Shown here: positions 2,169 to 44,513 of the stretch, piece after piece
How positions within the stretch are numbered: position 1 is the stretch's first letter
Layout: each line of letters starts with the position of its first letter
From: Klebsiella pneumoniae
GTDB lineage: Bacteria > Pseudomonadota > Gammaproteobacteria > Eutrophobiales > Eutrophobiaceae
Length of the DNA: 64,000 nucleotides
Assembly (NCBI GenBank): GCA_945878555.1
Contig: CAMDWI010000004.1
Span: forward strand, 62,001-126,000
Direction of reading: 5' to 3'
Notes under the pieces: generated by a model
Database searches by the model: none
Seen by the model: only the letters and a program-made list of their open reading frames with translations
What the model was told of the DNA's origin: nothing
Position numbers and translations under genes: made by a program

Positions 2169-3292
2169 AGAAAATACTATATCTGGTAACCGAAGACTGG
2201 TATTTCTGGTCACATCGACTGGCACTCGCCCGGGCCGTCAGGAAACAGGGATATGAAGTTTTTGTCATGACCAGATCAGGTGAATACACAGAATCAATAA
2301 ACGCGGAAGGATTAATATTGTTGCCACTGGCTATGAATCGCTCGATAGGTTCACTTGCCGGGGAACTCATTACCCTCTCAACAATATTCAGGATATATCG
2401 TGAAATCAAACCTGATGTAGTCCATCATATTGCGCTTAAGCCTGTGGTGCTGGGATCTATTGCAGCCAGGTTTGCAAGGGTGCCAGTAGTAGTCAACTCC
2501 TATACAGGACTTGGATTCCTGTTTATTTCCGATTCAAAATTGTCACGGCTATTCAGACGGTTTTTACTGCCACTACTTTCCTGCTTTTTAAAAGGTAATC
2601 GTGTCAATAACATCGTTCAGAACACTACAGACAGGGATCTTCTGATAAGTCTGGGGCTCGTCGTGTCTTCCCGTACTACCTTGATTCGCGGATCAGGAGT
2701 GGACATGAAGATATTTAATTATACTCAAGAAGTGGTTACTGACAGACCGATTGTCCTTTTTGCATCCCGTTTATTAAGAGATAAGGGTATATCGGAGTTT
2801 ATTGATGCAGCAAGGTTATTGAAATCCACCGGATGCAACGCAAGATTTGTTGTCGCAGGTGATATCGATCCGGGTAATCCGACCAGTACAAGTCATGAGT
2901 TGGTCGGGCAGTGGGTCGCAGATGGTCTGATAGAATGGTGGGGGCATCGGGTAGATATGCCCTCGGTATTCAGCCAGGTCAATATCGTTTGCCTTCCCTC
3001 CTATCGCGAAGGGCTGCCCAAGGTGCTGCTGGAAGCCGCTGCGTGTGGACGCGCCATTGTTACAACCGATGTCCCGGGTTGCTCTGATGTAGTGGTGGAT
3101 GGCGTGAATGGTCTGATGGTACCTGTCAGAAATCCGGTCAGACTGGCAGAAGCAATCCGGACTCTGGTGGATTCAGCCGAGCTACGTAATAAAATGGGGT
3201 TGGCAGGACGAAAATATGTAGAAGCAAGTTTTGACGTTGATGCCGTGAATGCAGAGACTATAAGTCTGTATAATCAGCTGCTTGAGAAATAA
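2165..3292 (+). CDS. Glycosyltransferase, GT4 family (PglA-like)
   Basis: 4-bp overlap with the upstream GT; 'PSYREGLPKVLLEAAACGRAIVTTDVPGC' motif and 'VVNSYTGLGFLF'. Confidence 0.85.
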   Translation: MKKILYLVTEDWYFWSHRLALARAVRKQGYEVFVMTRSGEYTESINAEGLILLPLAMNRSIGSLAGELITLSTIFRIYREIKPDVVHHIALKPVVLGSIAARFARVPVVVNSYTGLGFLFISDSKLSRLFRRFLLPLLSCFLKGNRVNNIVQNTTDRDLLISLGLVVSSRTTLIRGSGVDMKIFNYTQEVVTDRPIVLFASRLLRDKGISEFIDAARLLKSTGCNARFVVAGDIDPGNPTSTSHELVGQWVADGLIEWWGHRVDMPSVFSQVNIVCLPSYREGLPKVLLEAAACGRAIVTTDVPGCSDVVVDGVNGLMVPVRNPVRLAEAIRTLVDSAELRNKMGLAGRKYVEASFDVDAVNAETISLYNQLLEK

Positions 3293-30776: not shown

Positions 30777-32788
<2,012 letters not shown>

Positions 32789-32815: not shown

Positions 32816-34120
32816 GTGGCTATCGAGTATGGGAAACTGATTCAACTGTCGGCGGATCCCGTTACCGCAGAGAACAGATTTGAACGACTACTGGAAGATG
32901 AAACAATACGCGAAACAATAAGTTGTTGCCCCGAATCCGTAGTCCGGGATGTCCTCGGAATAATCAGTATATCGAGATTCCTGTTTCACTTCCTGTGTCG
33001 TAATCCAGACGCCATCCGGCAATTCACCAGACCATTCGCCAGTGACAGTCCCGTTCCTGTCATCAACAGCATTGATGAATTGCGGATATATAAATACCGA
33101 CAATTACTCGATATTACCTGGATGGACATATCCGCCAATGTCGCATATGGAAATGTCCTGACTGCGTTGAGTCGACTTGCCGATACAGTCGTTAACAATA
33201 CCTTACGTATCACACTCGCACCGGCTGATCTGGCGATCTTCGAAAAATATTTCTGTACATTTGCACTCGGCAAGCTGGGAGCGAATGAGCTTAATTACAG
33301 TTCGGATATTGATCTGATATTTGTCTGTGCCAATCCGACAGATGTGCCGCTGGAGGTCCATGAGTACCAGAAAGTGCTGCAGGACGGAATCCGGTTGATC
33401 TCCAGTCATCTTGAACAACGTACGGTCGACGGGTTCCTGTATCGTGTCGACCTGAAATTACGTCCCTGGGGCAACAGTGGACCACTGGTCATGACCATTG
33501 ACGAAACTGAAAACTACTACGCCGCAAGTACCGAGGCGTGGGAAAGGTTTGCCTGGTTGCGTGCCAGGGCCATATCCGGCTCCATGATACTGGGCGCAGA
33601 CCTGAAAAAAAGGCTGCATCCATTCGTATACAAGCGTTCCCTTAGCTCGGAAGATCTTGACCGGTTTATTGAAATCAAGAATGAAATGTTCAGGGCCAGA
33701 CGTAAAAAAGGATACTGGAATGTAAAGGTCGGGGAAGGGGGAATTCGTGATCTCGAATTTTTCATCCAGATGTTGCAACTGGTTAATGCTGCCTCAATTC
33801 CGTCACTGCAGCTGACTGGCACGATGAACGTCCTGGCCGGATTGCAAAGTGCCGGACTGGTCAGTGAAATGGAGGCCCGCGAAATTGAACACAGCTACAT
33901 GTTCCTGCGCAGGCTGGAAAACCGCTTGCAGATGATCGATGAGCAACAGACCCATGAATTACCTGATGATCCGCGTCTGCGTATCATCATTGCCAGATCC
34001 ATCGGCATCTCTGGCAAGACCGACAGTGAAATACTGGACAACTTTGAAAGTGAATTGTTTACCAACCGCACCATCGCGCAGGGGTATTTCGAAAGAATCC
34101 TGCCACAAAAGGGTGGTTGA
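32816..34120 (+). CDS. glnE: Glutamine-synthetase adenylyltransferase, N-terminal (adenylyl-removase-type) half, separate ORF
   Basis: 'ALGKLGANELNYSSDIDLIF', 'GFLYRVDLKLRPWGNSGPLV', 'GEGGIRDLEFFIQMLQL', 'YMFLRRLENRLQMIDEQQTHELP'. GTG start; stop TGA at 34118-34120. Confidence 0.85.
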   Translation: MAIEYGKLIQLSADPVTAENRFERLLEDETIRETISCCPESVVRDVLGIISISRFLFHFLCRNPDAIRQFTRPFASDSPVPVINSIDELRIYKYRQLLDITWMDISANVAYGNVLTALSRLADTVVNNTLRITLAPADLAIFEKYFCTFALGKLGANELNYSSDIDLIFVCANPTDVPLEVHEYQKVLQDGIRLISSHLEQRTVDGFLYRVDLKLRPWGNSGPLVMTIDETENYYAASTEAWERFAWLRARAISGSMILGADLKKRLHPFVYKRSLSSEDLDRFIEIKNEMFRARRKKGYWNVKVGEGGIRDLEFFIQMLQLVNAASIPSLQLTGTMNVLAGLQSAGLVSEMEAREIEHSYMFLRRLENRLQMIDEQQTHELPDDPRLRIIIARSIGISGKTDSEILDNFESELFTNRTIAQGYFERILPQKGG

Positions 34121-35424
34121 ACATGCTGAACACTGCACAAGTCAAAACAGTTTTCACCGCTGCCTGGCACGAAGAAACCGCACGCAACAGTATTGAGCGC
34201 TGGAACAAGGTCTGTGAGCAGGAAGGCTGGACAGGGAAACCGGATAATCGCGAGTTGTTGATTCGGATATTCGGTGCCAGCTGGTATTTTACCCGGTTTA
34301 TCTTTGCTACCGGGCTGCAAGCTATCGAAATTATTGACCAGGACAATAGACCGGTTACCGACAAGAATCATATCACCGCATTACTTGAACCCGCGCTGAA
34401 CCATGAAGACGTGGAAATCCGTACCAATCATTTACGGGTACTCAAGAACAAATGTATGTTGCAAATGCTTGCAGGGTACATGCAACAGAACTACACACTG
34501 GACCAGCTAGAGCAAGCGCTGACACTGCTCGCCGAGGCAACACTGGATATGCTAATCCGCTCGGTCCGGCTGGTCCCACAATATGAACAATTCCCGGTTA
34601 CCGTGCTGGCAATGGGCAGGATGGCCGGTTATGAAATGACTTTTGGGTCGGATCTGGATCTGATTTTTTTGTACGATGAAAAAGACCAGGAACTGTATGA
34701 CAGACTGGGCAGGACGATCAGACTGTTATTAAGGACTATTGCCCAGCCTGCGTCTGCCGGCTCACTTTATGATGTCGACATGCGCCTGCGTCCGCATGGT
34801 AATTCCGGTCTGCTGGTCACTTCATATGGGTCTTTCCTTGAATACCATGAAGGCAATCGTGACATCTGGGAAAGGCAGATGATGACGCGTTGCCGACCGA
34901 TCATCAAATGCAGCGAAAATGTGGACAGCGTCCTTGAACGGGTAAACCGGAATATCTACGCCGTATATGACAGGGAGTTTCTGCGCACGGAGATCCTGAA
35001 CATGCGCACACGGGTCCAGAAGGAACTGGGTAGCCCCAGAGGCAAATATGAAATAAAGCGTGGATTTGGCGGCATAATGGATATTGATTTTATCAGCCAT
35101 TACTTCCAGCTACTGTATGGACATCAGTATGCTGAATTACAGACGTGTGCGACCCGCCATGCTTTACTAACGTTGGGGCAACTCGGGATGGCTGACAGCC
35201 AGATCACCCGACAGTTGATCGGGCATTATGACTACCTTAAAAGGGTCGAGATGTGCCTGCGTTTGTTTGATATGAAGTCGGTAGATTCTTTCCGCTCCAC
35301 AGATACCGACATTACTCCCTTGTCACGATCGATGGGGCACGGAGACAACACCAGACTGTTTATTGAAGAATTTGAGTCCGTAACCCGGTCTGTTCGTTCC
35401 CGCTTCGATGAATTGATGGCCTGA
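34117..35424 (+). CDS. glnE: Glutamine-synthetase adenylyltransferase, C-terminal (adenylyltransferase-type) half, separate ORF
   Basis: 'VLAMGRMAGYEMTFGSDLDLIFLYD', 'YDVDMRLRPHGNSGLLVTSYGSFLEYHEGNRDIWERQMMTRCRPI', 'KRGFGGIMDIDFISHYFQLL'. In -1 frame relative to the previous ORF; alternative ATG at 34123. Confidence 0.82.
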   Translation: MNMLNTAQVKTVFTAAWHEETARNSIERWNKVCEQEGWTGKPDNRELLIRIFGASWYFTRFIFATGLQAIEIIDQDNRPVTDKNHITALLEPALNHEDVEIRTNHLRVLKNKCMLQMLAGYMQQNYTLDQLEQALTLLAEATLDMLIRSVRLVPQYEQFPVTVLAMGRMAGYEMTFGSDLDLIFLYDEKDQELYDRLGRTIRLLLRTIAQPASAGSLYDVDMRLRPHGNSGLLVTSYGSFLEYHEGNRDIWERQMMTRCRPIIKCSENVDSVLERVNRNIYAVYDREFLRTEILNMRTRVQKELGSPRGKYEIKRGFGGIMDIDFISHYFQLLYGHQYAELQTCATRHALLTLGQLGMADSQITRQLIGHYDYLKRVEMCLRLFDMKSVDSFRSTDTDITPLSRSMGHGDNTRLFIEEFESVTRSVRSRFDELMA

Positions 35425-36784: not shown

Positions 36785-38470
36785 TCAATCCTCCTTTCCC
36801 GCAAATAGTAATACCGCTTTTCTCAATCGTACATGACTATTCACCCTTTTCAGATATTCAATCTGGCGTGGGGCGCCTTTCAGTCGGGCGATCTCGACAA
36901 GTTTGAGCCGTTCATCATGCGACCAGTTATCAAGCGTGTCCAGATTCAGGAGCAGCGGCGCCCAGTTTTCATAACTGCGGCGCTGGTCACTATCGATCAA
37001 TCTCTCGTGACGCGTGCCAAGTCTGGTCATCGCCTCGCGGGCACATAGCCGGGCGCCATGCTCACGCCTCGCACCAAACCGCGCCGCCATATAACTCGAT
37101 ATGCCGGGACTGATACCGGCCAGTCTCGACAATATGGTCAGCTGTTCGGGAGCAGGTTTGATCTGCAAAAACATCGCATCTGCAGCGAGCCGGTTCAGTG
37201 TGGATATTTCTGTACGCCAGGTCGGGTCAGCGGATATTTTTTTCAGTTCCTGCGCAAGCAGCCTGTTGATGTCATCGTTTTGCGGGCGGAAACCAAGCTT
37301 GTAATAGAACCACCACACACCGGATTTCAGTCCGTCCCGATTGTTATACCCGAGCTGGTACGGGTCGACTACAAATGTGTTAATCCCTAACAGGCGATGT
37401 GCTACAGCAATATTCCGGTTGTAAATCAGGGTGGACTCTCCCCCGCGGAATGCGTTAAACAGGTTAAAGGCGGCCTCGGCACAGGAAAAGACGGTGCTGA
37501 CGGGAAAGTAGGCGACAGGCATCCCGTTTTTGCAGGTAAGCAGAGCGTAGCTGGCGTGCAGCAGATAGCGTCTTTCGGGGACGATACCGATACAGGCAAT
37601 CTGGTAGCCGTCAGCAAAGTCGATCAGGCTGACATCGTTGCGGTTACCATAGGCAAAGGTATCAAGGTCTCTCTCATGAGTAAGCATTGTTTTTCTGGCC
37701 AGATCGATAACCCGATCACCCTCAACCGGATCCAGATCGGTGATTTTAAAGCGTGTCTCCCTGATGACCTGACGAATATCTTTATGTTCACGCTGAAACG
37801 GTTGCGTCTGCACGCTGATCCGGCTGCGTTCGAGCAGGTTATTGGCTATCGTTGGTGTGGTTTGTCCGGGTAAAAGCCGGTATGCGAGGTCCAGATCATC
37901 GTGTAACTGTTCGCGCTCAAGATCATCACGATAGATATGTTGCAGACGGGTCAGGAAAAAAACCGCATCCGTTTCAGTAGTGGATTTCAGTTTGTTAATC
38001 CAGGTTCTGATCGGCCGGTCCGTTTCATCAAACGCACTTGCCTCGTTAGGTGGCACCAGCAAGGGCAGAATTTTCAGCAGTCTATCCTGCTGGTCTCCGT
38101 CAATTCGTTGCCAGTCGAGCACGAGTTTGTCCGGCCAGTGTTTTGCCAGCCAGCGTGCCATTGGCCAGAAAAAACAGTATTCCATCCTGGTGCCGGCTAT
38201 ACCGGAGTTCACCAGTGATTTGCGCAAGCGTTTGATGTCCTGGCGACGGCCAAATCCAGTCAACATTGTTCTTGCCAGATGGAACAATTCAATGGAATCA
38301 GGATAGGCAAGGATAAAACACAATATCGCGTGCAGACGTCGGGTATGACTGGCGAGTACCACTGGCTTGTGATGGAGTGCCTCGAGCAATTCCAGTTTTT
38401 CAATGGCACTGGCCGTCGTAAATACAGTTTTCAGTTGTTCCAGTCGTGACAGACAGCGGAGGGCTTTCAT
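36785..38470 (-). CDS. Uncharacterised 561-aa protein, possible GNAT-like C-terminal fold
   Basis: Long ORF with strongly coding composition. 'HASYALLTCKNGMPVAYFPVSTVFSCAEAAFNLFNAFRGGES' and 'GVWWFYYKLGFRPQ' resemble acetyltransferase-like motifs. Confidence 0.75.
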   Translation of the reverse strand: MKALRCLSRLEQLKTVFTTASAIEKLELLEALHHKPVVLASHTRRLHAILCFILAYPDSIELFHLARTMLTGFGRRQDIKRLRKSLVNSGIAGTRMEYCFFWPMARWLAKHWPDKLVLDWQRIDGDQQDRLLKILPLLVPPNEASAFDETDRPIRTWINKLKSTTETDAVFFLTRLQHIYRDDLEREQLHDDLDLAYRLLPGQTTPTIANNLLERSRISVQTQPFQREHKDIRQVIRETRFKITDLDPVEGDRVIDLARKTMLTHERDLDTFAYGNRNDVSLIDFADGYQIACIGIVPERRYLLHASYALLTCKNGMPVAYFPVSTVFSCAEAAFNLFNAFRGGESTLIYNRNIAVAHRLLGINTFVVDPYQLGYNNRDGLKSGVWWFYYKLGFRPQNDDINRLLAQELKKISADPTWRTEISTLNRLAADAMFLQIKPAPEQLTILSRLAGISPGISSYMAARFGARREHGARLCAREAMTRLGTRHERLIDSDQRRSYENWAPLLLNLDTLDNWSHDERLKLVEIARLKGAPRQIEYLKRVNSHVRLRKAVLLFAGKED

Positions 38471-41606: not shown

Positions 41607-44513
41607 ATGTCAGTAAAACAACCATCGCTTGATTCTCTGGAAATACACGGTGATTTTATACGCCGTCATATTGGCTCTGATCCTGCACAGATAGCCGCAA
41701 TCTGCAAGCAGTTGGGTATTGACCAGGCGGAATCAATCCTCGCAAAGGCTGTCCCCGAAGCAATACTCACCCGCGAGCCCTTTTCAGGGAACGCTACACT
41801 CAGTGAAGAGGACGTGATTGCCAGACTGGGCGAGATGCGCACCAGCAATCACGTTTATACCTCCATGATCGGGATGGGCTATTCCGGCACGATTATGCCT
41901 GCCGTTATCAAACGCAATGTGCTGGAGAACCCGTCCTGGTATACCGCCTATACACCCTATCAGGCCGAAATCAGTCAGGGCAGGCTGGAGGCACTGCTGA
42001 ATTTCCAGCAGATGATTATGGATCTTACCGGTATGGAGATTGCTAATGCCTCCTTGCTGGATGAAGCCACCGCTGCCGCCGAGGCTATGGCGATGTCCAG
42101 CCGCATCAGCAAGAAAAAAAATAACCGCTATTTTGTCGACCGTGACTGTCACCCGCAAACGCTCGCCGTCGTCCAGACCCGTGCCAGATATTTTGGTTTT
42201 GAACTGGTCATTGGCGATCCATTAACGGACCTCGCGAACGAATCTGTATTTGGTGTATTAATCCAGTATCCTGGCTCCTCCGGTGCAGTACGCGATATTG
42301 AGCCCGCGATCCAGTCAGCACATGCGCAGGATGCACTGGTTACAGTGGCCACAGACATTATGAGTCTTGTCCTGTTGAAGTCTCCCGGGCAAATGGGGGC
42401 CGATATCGTACTTGGTAATTCACAACGGTTTGGTGTGCCGCTTGGCTACGGTGGCCCGCATGCCGCGTTTTTTGCCACACGTGAAAGTTTTATCCGGCAG
42501 ATGCCAGGACGGGTCATTGGTGTCTCGATAGACAAGAACGGCGATCCCGCACTGCGTATGGTGTTGCAAACACGTGAACAGCATATCCGCCGTGAGAAGG
42601 CGACCAGTAATATCTGTACATCCCAGGTTTTGCTGGCGGTCATAGCCAGTTTCTATGCGATTTATCACGGACCGGAGTCGTTGAAGCTGATTGCCGGCCG
42701 TATCCATCGTCTGGCAGGTCTGTTTGCAGCCGGTCTGGATCAGGCCGGATACCGGGTAATCAATACTGCATTTTTTGATACGGTTACCGTGCATGTCCCC
42801 GGCAAGGCCACGCTGTTCCTTGAGCAGGCGCGTGCATTGCGCATCAATCTTCGACAGGTCGATGCCGATCACCTCGGCATTGCGTTTGATGAAACCAGTA
42901 CCCGTTCTGATGTGGAAACGTTATGGCGGATGTTTGCCAGCGCTCGGGGGACGAATACCCCGGATCTGAATGTACTAGATCAAACTACAGGCATGTTTAT
43001 CCCCGCCGTATTGCAACGCCAGACCGGGTTTCTCTCCCATGCCGTTTTCCACCTGTACCACAGTGAAACCGAGATGATGCGTTATATCCAGTGGCTTGCA
43101 CGACGTGACATCGCCCTGGATCGTGCAATGATCCCGCTGGGTTCCTGTACGATGAAACTGAATGCCGCTACAGAGATGCAGGCGCTTTCCTATGCCGAGT
43201 TCAGTTCACTGCATCCGTTCGCGCCTGTAGAGCAGGCCGGGGGTTACCAGCGGCTGTTTACTGAATTACAGCAGATGTTGTGCAATCTGACCGGATTTTC
43301 TGCATTTTCGTTACAGCCAAATGCCGGTTCACAGGGTGAATATGCCGGATTGCTGGTTATACGCAAGTTTCAGGAAGTCGCTGGCGAAAGTCATCGCGAT
43401 ATCTGCCTGATCCCGGCCTCGGCACACGGAACCAATCCTGCCAGTGCTGCAATGGCTGGTCTGAAAGTCGTCGTGGTCAAATGTGACGACGATGGCAATG
43501 TCGATATGGCTGATCTGGCTGAAAAAGCGGAAAAATATGCTGCCAGTCTTTCGGCATTGATGATTACCTATCCATCCACCCACGGTGTGTTTGAGGCCGG
43601 TGTGCGTGATATCTGTGAGGTGATCCATAAATTCGGTGGTCAGGTCTATCTGGACGGTGCCAATATGAATGCACTGGTCGGTATCTGCCGGCCGGCCGAG
43701 ATAGGGGCCGATGTCATGCACATCAACCTGCACAAGACCTTTGCGATCCCGCATGGTGGTGGTGGACCCGGTATGGGGCCGATCGGTGTTAAAGCCCATC
43801 TGGCGCCGTACCTGCCGGACCATCCCGTTATCGCCGGGGTAAATCCGCTTGCAAACAAACATGGCACCATTGGTACAGTCTCGGCTGCCCCGTGGGGCTC
43901 GGCGAGTATCCTGACCATCTCCTGGGCCTATATTGCGATGATGGGATCAGCGGGCTTGCGTCATGCGACGGTGATGGCGATCCTGAACGCAAATTATCTG
44001 GCAAGCCGCCTCTCGGCGCATTATCCGATTTTATATACCGGCAAAAATGGGATGGTCGCACACGAGTGTATTATTGACCTGCGCCAGCTCAAGGAGTCCA
44101 GTGGCATCTCTGTCGATGATGTTGCCAAACGCCTGATAGACTATGGCTTTCATTCACCAACGATGTCATTCCCCGTAGCTGATACGTTGATGATCGAGCC
44201 GACCGAGAGTGAAAACAAACGCGAGCTTGATCGGTTCTGTGAGGCGATGATAGCGATACGGCAGGAAATTACCGATGTCGAGAACGGAGTATCTGACCGT
44301 CTGGATAACCCGCTGAAAAACGCGCCACATACCGCAAAACTGTTGACTGCCGAAAACTGGGACAGACCGTATAGCAGGCACCAGGCAGCTTATCCGGTGA
44401 AGACCTTGCGTGATGACAAATACTGGCCACCTGTAGGCCGTATTGATAATCTCTACGGGGACAAAAACCTGTTCTGCAGCTGCATGCCAGTTGAGGCCTA
44501 TAACCAGGACTAG
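41607..44513 (+). CDS. gcvP: Glycine dehydrogenase (decarboxylating), single-chain P protein
   Basis: 968 aa; 'MIGMGYSGTIMPAVIKRNVLENPSWYTAYTPYQAEISQGRLEALLNFQ', 'NLHKTFAIPHGGGGPGMGPIGV'. Confidence 0.97.
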   Translation: MSVKQPSLDSLEIHGDFIRRHIGSDPAQIAAICKQLGIDQAESILAKAVPEAILTREPFSGNATLSEEDVIARLGEMRTSNHVYTSMIGMGYSGTIMPAVIKRNVLENPSWYTAYTPYQAEISQGRLEALLNFQQMIMDLTGMEIANASLLDEATAAAEAMAMSSRISKKKNNRYFVDRDCHPQTLAVVQTRARYFGFELVIGDPLTDLANESVFGVLIQYPGSSGAVRDIEPAIQSAHAQDALVTVATDIMSLVLLKSPGQMGADIVLGNSQRFGVPLGYGGPHAAFFATRESFIRQMPGRVIGVSIDKNGDPALRMVLQTREQHIRREKATSNICTSQVLLAVIASFYAIYHGPESLKLIAGRIHRLAGLFAAGLDQAGYRVINTAFFDTVTVHVPGKATLFLEQARALRINLRQVDADHLGIAFDETSTRSDVETLWRMFASARGTNTPDLNVLDQTTGMFIPAVLQRQTGFLSHAVFHLYHSETEMMRYIQWLARRDIALDRAMIPLGSCTMKLNAATEMQALSYAEFSSLHPFAPVEQAGGYQRLFTELQQMLCNLTGFSAFSLQPNAGSQGEYAGLLVIRKFQEVAGESHRDICLIPASAHGTNPASAAMAGLKVVVVKCDDDGNVDMADLAEKAEKYAASLSALMITYPSTHGVFEAGVRDICEVIHKFGGQVYLDGANMNALVGICRPAEIGADVMHINLHKTFAIPHGGGGPGMGPIGVKAHLAPYLPDHPVIAGVNPLANKHGTIGTVSAAPWGSASILTISWAYIAMMGSAGLRHATVMAILNANYLASRLSAHYPILYTGKNGMVAHECIIDLRQLKESSGISVDDVAKRLIDYGFHSPTMSFPVADTLMIEPTESENKRELDRFCEAMIAIRQEITDVENGVSDRLDNPLKNAPHTAKLLTAENWDRPYSRHQAAYPVKTLRDDKYWPPVGRIDNLYGDKNLFCSCMPVEAYNQD

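Follow-up and report, generated by a model that had tools for sequence, protein, structure and literature searches.

GlnE as two adjacent reading frames, adenylyl-removing and adenylylating, in a bacterial lineage and its relatives

GlnE usually consists of one chain that attaches AMP to glutamine synthetase (GS) and also removes it. It is the founding example of reversible protein AMPylation, with two opposed activities on one polypeptide, and futile cycling between them is prevented by signalling through the central R domain. Biochemists have artificially cut E. coli GlnE between its adenylyl-removing (AR) and adenylyltransferase (AT) halves. In the stretch of 64,000 nucleotides analysed here (the window), two adjacent open reading frames correspond to these same halves. 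Is this a damaged or misread gene, or an enzyme maintained as two proteins, and in the latter case how might the nitrogen signal reach it?

Two reading frames and their assignment

All features described here for the glnE locus lie on the forward strand. The upstream gene (30911-32788), whose translation we take to be ThiC (phosphomethylpyrimidine synthase), provides context only and ends 27 bp before ORF1. ORF1 extends from a GTG at 32816 to a TGA ending at 34120 and encodes a predicted deadenylylating (adenylyl-removing) nucleotidyltransferase of 434 aa. ORF2, predicted to be the adenylylating nucleotidyltransferase, extends from an ATG at 34123 to 35424 and encodes 433 aa, or 435 aa from an alternative TTG start at 34117. 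The junction (34110-34125) contains a Shine-Dalgarno-like AGGGTGG (34110-34116) a short way 5' of the ORF2 start, the ORF1 TGA (34118-34120) and the ORF2 ATG (34123-34125). Stop and start are separated by 2 nt and the two ORFs are in different frames.

The first-pass annotation had described ORFs of 434 and 435 aa, each carrying a nucleotidyltransferase half, and this description was borne out: both quoted motifs were found, and each ORF matched PF03710 (GlnE) and PF08335. For PF03710 the E-values were 1.1e-41 (ORF1) and 6.9e-35 (ORF2), and ORF1 matched PF08335 with 4.1e-26. Each ORF thus has the GlnE architecture of a nucleotidyltransferase domain followed by a helical domain of the GlnD_UR_UTase type. 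On the 946 positions of the PRK11072 GlnE model, ORF1 aligned to 89-435 and ORF2 to 591-873. The bit scores of 259.5 and 214.2 stayed below the NCBIfam equivalog cut-off of 487, as expected for the halves of a divergent protein. The active-site motifs are SSDIDL and VDLKLRP in ORF1, with an AR-type Asn at the position of E. coli N169, and GSDLDL and VDMRLRPHG in ORF2.

To which activity does each half belong? The best structure match of ORF1 was the E. coli AR domain (1V4A, 2.5e-52) and that of ORF2 the E. coli AT domain (3K7D, 6.4e-29; profile 6.7e-57). When 92 catalytic domains were placed in a tree, the N-terminal halves of the clade formed by the window's GlnE and its relatives grouped with AR domains and the C-terminal halves with AT domains, the separating branch having a support of 100. 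The catalytic Asp residues of the SDxD and LRP motifs are invariant in both halves throughout the clade. Class-specific residues were taken from PMC4454073: the AR-class Asn (equivalent to E. coli N169) is invariant in the N-terminal half, and the position of the AT-class Gly697 is occupied by Thr in the window and by Asn, Ile, Ser or Gly in relatives, a position that also varies in other AT domains. On these comparisons ORF1 is orthologous to AR and ORF2 to AT. The AlphaFold model of ORF2 (pLDDT 91.5) superposed with a TM-score of 0.81 on the AR structure versus 0.73 on the AT structure. This slightly better AR fit is taken to result from the shortening of the AT half at its N-terminal end. 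It had hinted that the C-terminal half might be a duplicated AR, which the AR/AT tree ruled out.

The window genome (3.55 Mb, 94.8% complete) was searched for a second full-length glnE, a check that the first-pass annotation had proposed. None was found in this assembly, whose PF03710 matches were confined to the two adjacent ORFs. A 968-aa ORF at 41607, considered as a glnE candidate, turned out to be GcvP. Downstream in the window, between a GGDEF gene and asnS, a 561-aa ORF (36785-38470, reverse strand) had no significant Pfam or NCBIfam match; the nearest relative, G004, has a copy with 86% identity. A GlnE-like domain was also seen outside GlnE proper, in an 817-aa protein (L090:1146-3599; G035, C10) that joins a PF00487 desaturase/alkane-hydroxylase-like membrane domain to a degenerate GlnE-like domain (PF03710 46 bits, and PF08335) with a broken SDxD motif (GAGLDIMF). 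Similar ORFs of about 810 aa occur in G038:C38, G041:C121 and G044:C68, and this type of fusion was found only in a genus with fused GlnE.

Extent and history of the split

Scans of contigs and whole genomes yielded 32 genomes from the window's family in which both halves are present and the junction can be read. Separate ORFs were present in 24 of them, including four other members of the window's genus, and a single ORF in the remaining 8. G017 was left out of the count, its junction being interrupted by an assembly gap, and G019 breaks off after the AR half. The split was also found in two other families, one represented by G178 and the other by G139, G271 and G367. The two halves are therefore encoded by two ORFs, in place of a single polypeptide, in the window and in 27 other genomes, that is 28 genomes of uncultured gammaproteobacteria from three families, with identities across the split genomes down to about 39%. 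The gene order tolC, pcm, thiC, AR, AT was shared by most of these genomes, those of the other two families included. The natural bisection of GlnE proposed by the first-pass annotation is thus matched by the same two-ORF layout at a syntenic locus in relatives.

The junctions themselves are diverse. The ORF2 start lies at -4 to +12 nt from the ORF1 stop within the family and at +26 nt in G178. Family members show ATGA overlaps, TAATG overlaps or short gaps. All three frame relations (0, +1, +2) are represented, stop and start codons vary, and the ORF2 start at the junction is ATG except in two genomes with GTG or TTG. Compared with its nearest relative, the window gave a dN/dS of 0.075 for the AR half and 0.119 for the AT half, and both halves are under purifying selection. 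Varied junctions in which a start always lies near the stop argue for translationally coupled genes kept over the long term, and against shared sequencing errors or recoding.

Could the locus be a fused glnE that was misread during sequencing or assembly, or that a frameshift has recently disabled? The first-pass annotation had kept sequencing error and recent frameshift as a caveat, to which the 42 contigs of the window assembly might lend some colour. These comparisons exclude both: independent assemblies of relatives show the split in 28 genomes with differing junctions, start-stop signals at every one of them and dN/dS far below 1 in both halves, and one indel cannot account for about 85 absent residues. 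That annotation had set against its own reading the case in which all relatives encode one fused ORF at this locus, and the opposite was observed, 24 genomes of the family and 4 elsewhere being split.

A programmed frameshift or stop readthrough yielding a full-length fused GlnE is very improbable. Some genomes do have short overlaps, and the natural fusions indicate that a fused chain is workable in the clade. Against recoding, the frame relation varies from genome to genome with no common junction sequence, and a dedicated start is found at the stop in every genome, sometimes several untranslated bases later.

Two observations on related contigs may be recorded here. In G004, thiC (L060, about 2950-3280) has lost about 1.26 kb internally, so that only codons of about 94-148 and 570-626 are left; the glnE pair that follows remains intact and is kept by selection. 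The contig CAMBTO010000024.1 (L003), of the window's genus and sharing about 90% identity with the window across each GlnE half, is titled Klebsiella pneumoniae and is apparently a mislabelled metagenome-assembled genome.

How did the split state arise? A tree placed 35 clade members (27 split, G017 included, and 8 fused) in one group with a support of 100, the fused members being nested inside it. The fused G034 is sister to the split G014 and its linker retains the Met of the old start, so that either the two ORFs were joined again or the assembly contains an indel. For G005 a re-fusion is probable, on a borderline AU p of 0.033, and genus g15 may be primitively fused (AU p 0.28). Monophyly of the split state was rejected overall (p 4e-7) because G034 sits inside the split genus g11. 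At least one re-fusion is required, and parsimony counts three, with G034 itself being either a re-fusion or an assembly indel. These natural fusions suggest that the AR and AT chains work together. In the AlphaFold model of a naturally fused relative, the stretch of lowest confidence (430-441) falls at the fission point, and its low pTM (0.54) would resemble two domains on a loose linker.

Outside the clade, three samples were surveyed, one of 96 relatives, one of 184 genomes from the class and one of 70 genomes from the phylum. Among the matches listed, GlnE was a single long ORF, mostly of 860-1,100 aa, a few being cut by contig ends; since the surveys were samples, rare independent splits may exist elsewhere. 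In the open-access literature searched we found no report of a split glnE, and a genome-wide survey of reading-frame transitions does not name it.

The two chains might also never have been fused in this lineage, either as an ancestral AR and AT pair or through transfer from an unfused donor. The deeper placement of the clade leaves some room for this: its AT halves fall outside both the gammaproteobacterial and the other-class GlnE with a support of 98, and AU tests do not decide. We regard it as improbable, as GlnE outside the clade is one ORF among the matches listed in the samples and the locus keeps its gene order in three families and shows no trace of recent transfer.

The central region and the partner proteins

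ORF1 and ORF2 together amount to about 867 aa, about 80 residues below a normal GlnE, and the deficit is central. Summed over both chains, 425-453 residues separate the two SDxD motifs in the clade, whether split or fused, versus 500-547 in 29 other gammaproteobacterial GlnE, 527-532 in another class and 496 in the distant fused protein of G181. The alignment gap lies between the end of AR and the FGxSWYFTR segment. Spacing and alignment gap agree that most of the R domain normally found between the halves is missing, from fused and split clade members alike; in the window the loss falls at the N-terminus of the AT half. In its place, the start of ORF2 carries a short, strongly conserved and clade-specific block (W15, R26, W36, FGxSWYFTR).

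The R domain of E. coli GlnE is reported to bind PII and PII-UMP (PMC12894286; likewise PMC12409994, citing Clancy et al. 2007). The first-pass annotation had proposed that a bisected GlnE would change the coupling to PII and glutamine; it had not described that the central R region is lost, and this loss strengthens the proposal. The E. coli constructs of Clancy et al. that lack both the opposing domain and the R domain reportedly stay active without the nitrogen signal proteins.

We then considered the target and the partners. The window genome encodes a canonical GlnA whose adenylylation motif KDLYDLEPEE contains the target Tyr, and three PII proteins with the Tyr51 motif GHTELYRGAEY beside amtB-like genes, so that both of the proteins which the first-pass annotation had asked about were found. 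GlnD is present too, at full length (923.8 bits), elsewhere in the genome. Wherever the site could be read in a GlnE-positive genome, 11 of 11 cases, the GlnA Tyr motif is kept. When the family is restricted to genomes of at least 90% completeness, canonical GlnA occurs in 10/10 GlnE-positive versus 4/11 GlnE-negative members (Fisher p 0.004, kinship ignored), a co-occurrence that ties the split enzyme to GlnA.

The idea that GlnE-negative relatives had lost the GlnA Tyr proved mostly wrong, the Tyr remaining in genus g17. What is lost in seven near-complete GlnE-negative genomes is canonical GlnA itself: G007, G010, G022, G024, G032, G040 and G046 (96-100% complete) are without GlnE and without canonical GlnA, and keep GlnD.

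ORF1 and ORF2 might instead have left GS regulation, as paralogue-like nucleotidyltransferases acting on another protein. Their identity of about 25-39% to other GlnE, the long stem branch of the clade, the absent R domain and the variable Gly697 position would fit such a change of target. Nevertheless the genome search found no GlnE besides them, GlnA keeps its Tyr motif, and the seven near-complete family members without canonical GlnA are also without GlnE. We consider this change of target unlikely, if slightly less so than chains that were never fused.

A proposed mode of action and comparison with known systems

The explanation that we favour, with a probability of roughly 0.8, is an old and maintained fission of GlnE throughout the lineage into a translationally coupled eraser and writer, which probably cooperate and whose nitrogen-signal route has changed. 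It is built on sequence evidence: two intact halves under selection, a conserved layout, coupling signals, catalytic residues, loss of the R region, and the presence of target and partners. The AR and then the AT protein would be translated from one message by start-stop coupling, in near-equal amounts. ORF1, the eraser, would remove AMP from GlnA by phosphorolysis, and ORF2, the writer, would transfer AMP from ATP onto the GlnA tyrosine, so that both halves are predicted to be active on GlnA. They may associate non-covalently or act as free enzymes on the same GlnA dodecamer. Because the known docking domain for PII and PII-UMP is largely gone, we infer that the nitrogen signal arrives by another route. 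Candidates are a direct action on each half, the block at the start of ORF2 (W15...R26...W36...FGxSWYFTR) or glutamine alone.

In a stronger version, a tentative reading that we hold at below even odds, writer and eraser are independent subunits without a PII-binding R domain, and the pair senses nitrogen status by other means. It might respond to glutamine directly, bind PII at a new site, or be controlled as an AR-AT heterodimer that forms and dissociates on GlnA.

Returning to the maintained fission, split GlnE is a genuine, long-established variant of a known enzyme, built from known parts and surprising to a specialist of nitrogen regulation. The lineage makes it testable whether reciprocal control needs the covalent linkage and the R domain, and its naturally separate AR and AT proteins offer material for structural work with GS.

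Compared with E. coli GlnE (AR-R-AT; 1V4A, 3K7D), both catalytic halves are orthologous and alike in motifs, order and fold. E. coli GlnE is however one polypeptide, whereas two are encoded here, and these lack about 85 residues of the central R domain. GlnD, the uridylyltransferase/uridylyl-removing enzyme, belongs to a related nucleotidyltransferase superfamily and to the same cascade, and ORF1 gives a weak profile match to it; it differs in that a normal full-length GlnD sits elsewhere in the window genome. The closest engineered parallel is the truncated "unidirectional" GlnE (uAT) of E. coli and Azorhizobium, which forces GS adenylylation (PMC9249168). As in split GlnE, the AT half of these constructs is free-standing; unlike it, they were engineered without the AR half, which in the split locus would be a second protein translated from the shared message. 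The split lineage is a potential source of free-standing AT enzymes like those engineered for ammonia-excreting nitrogen fixers.
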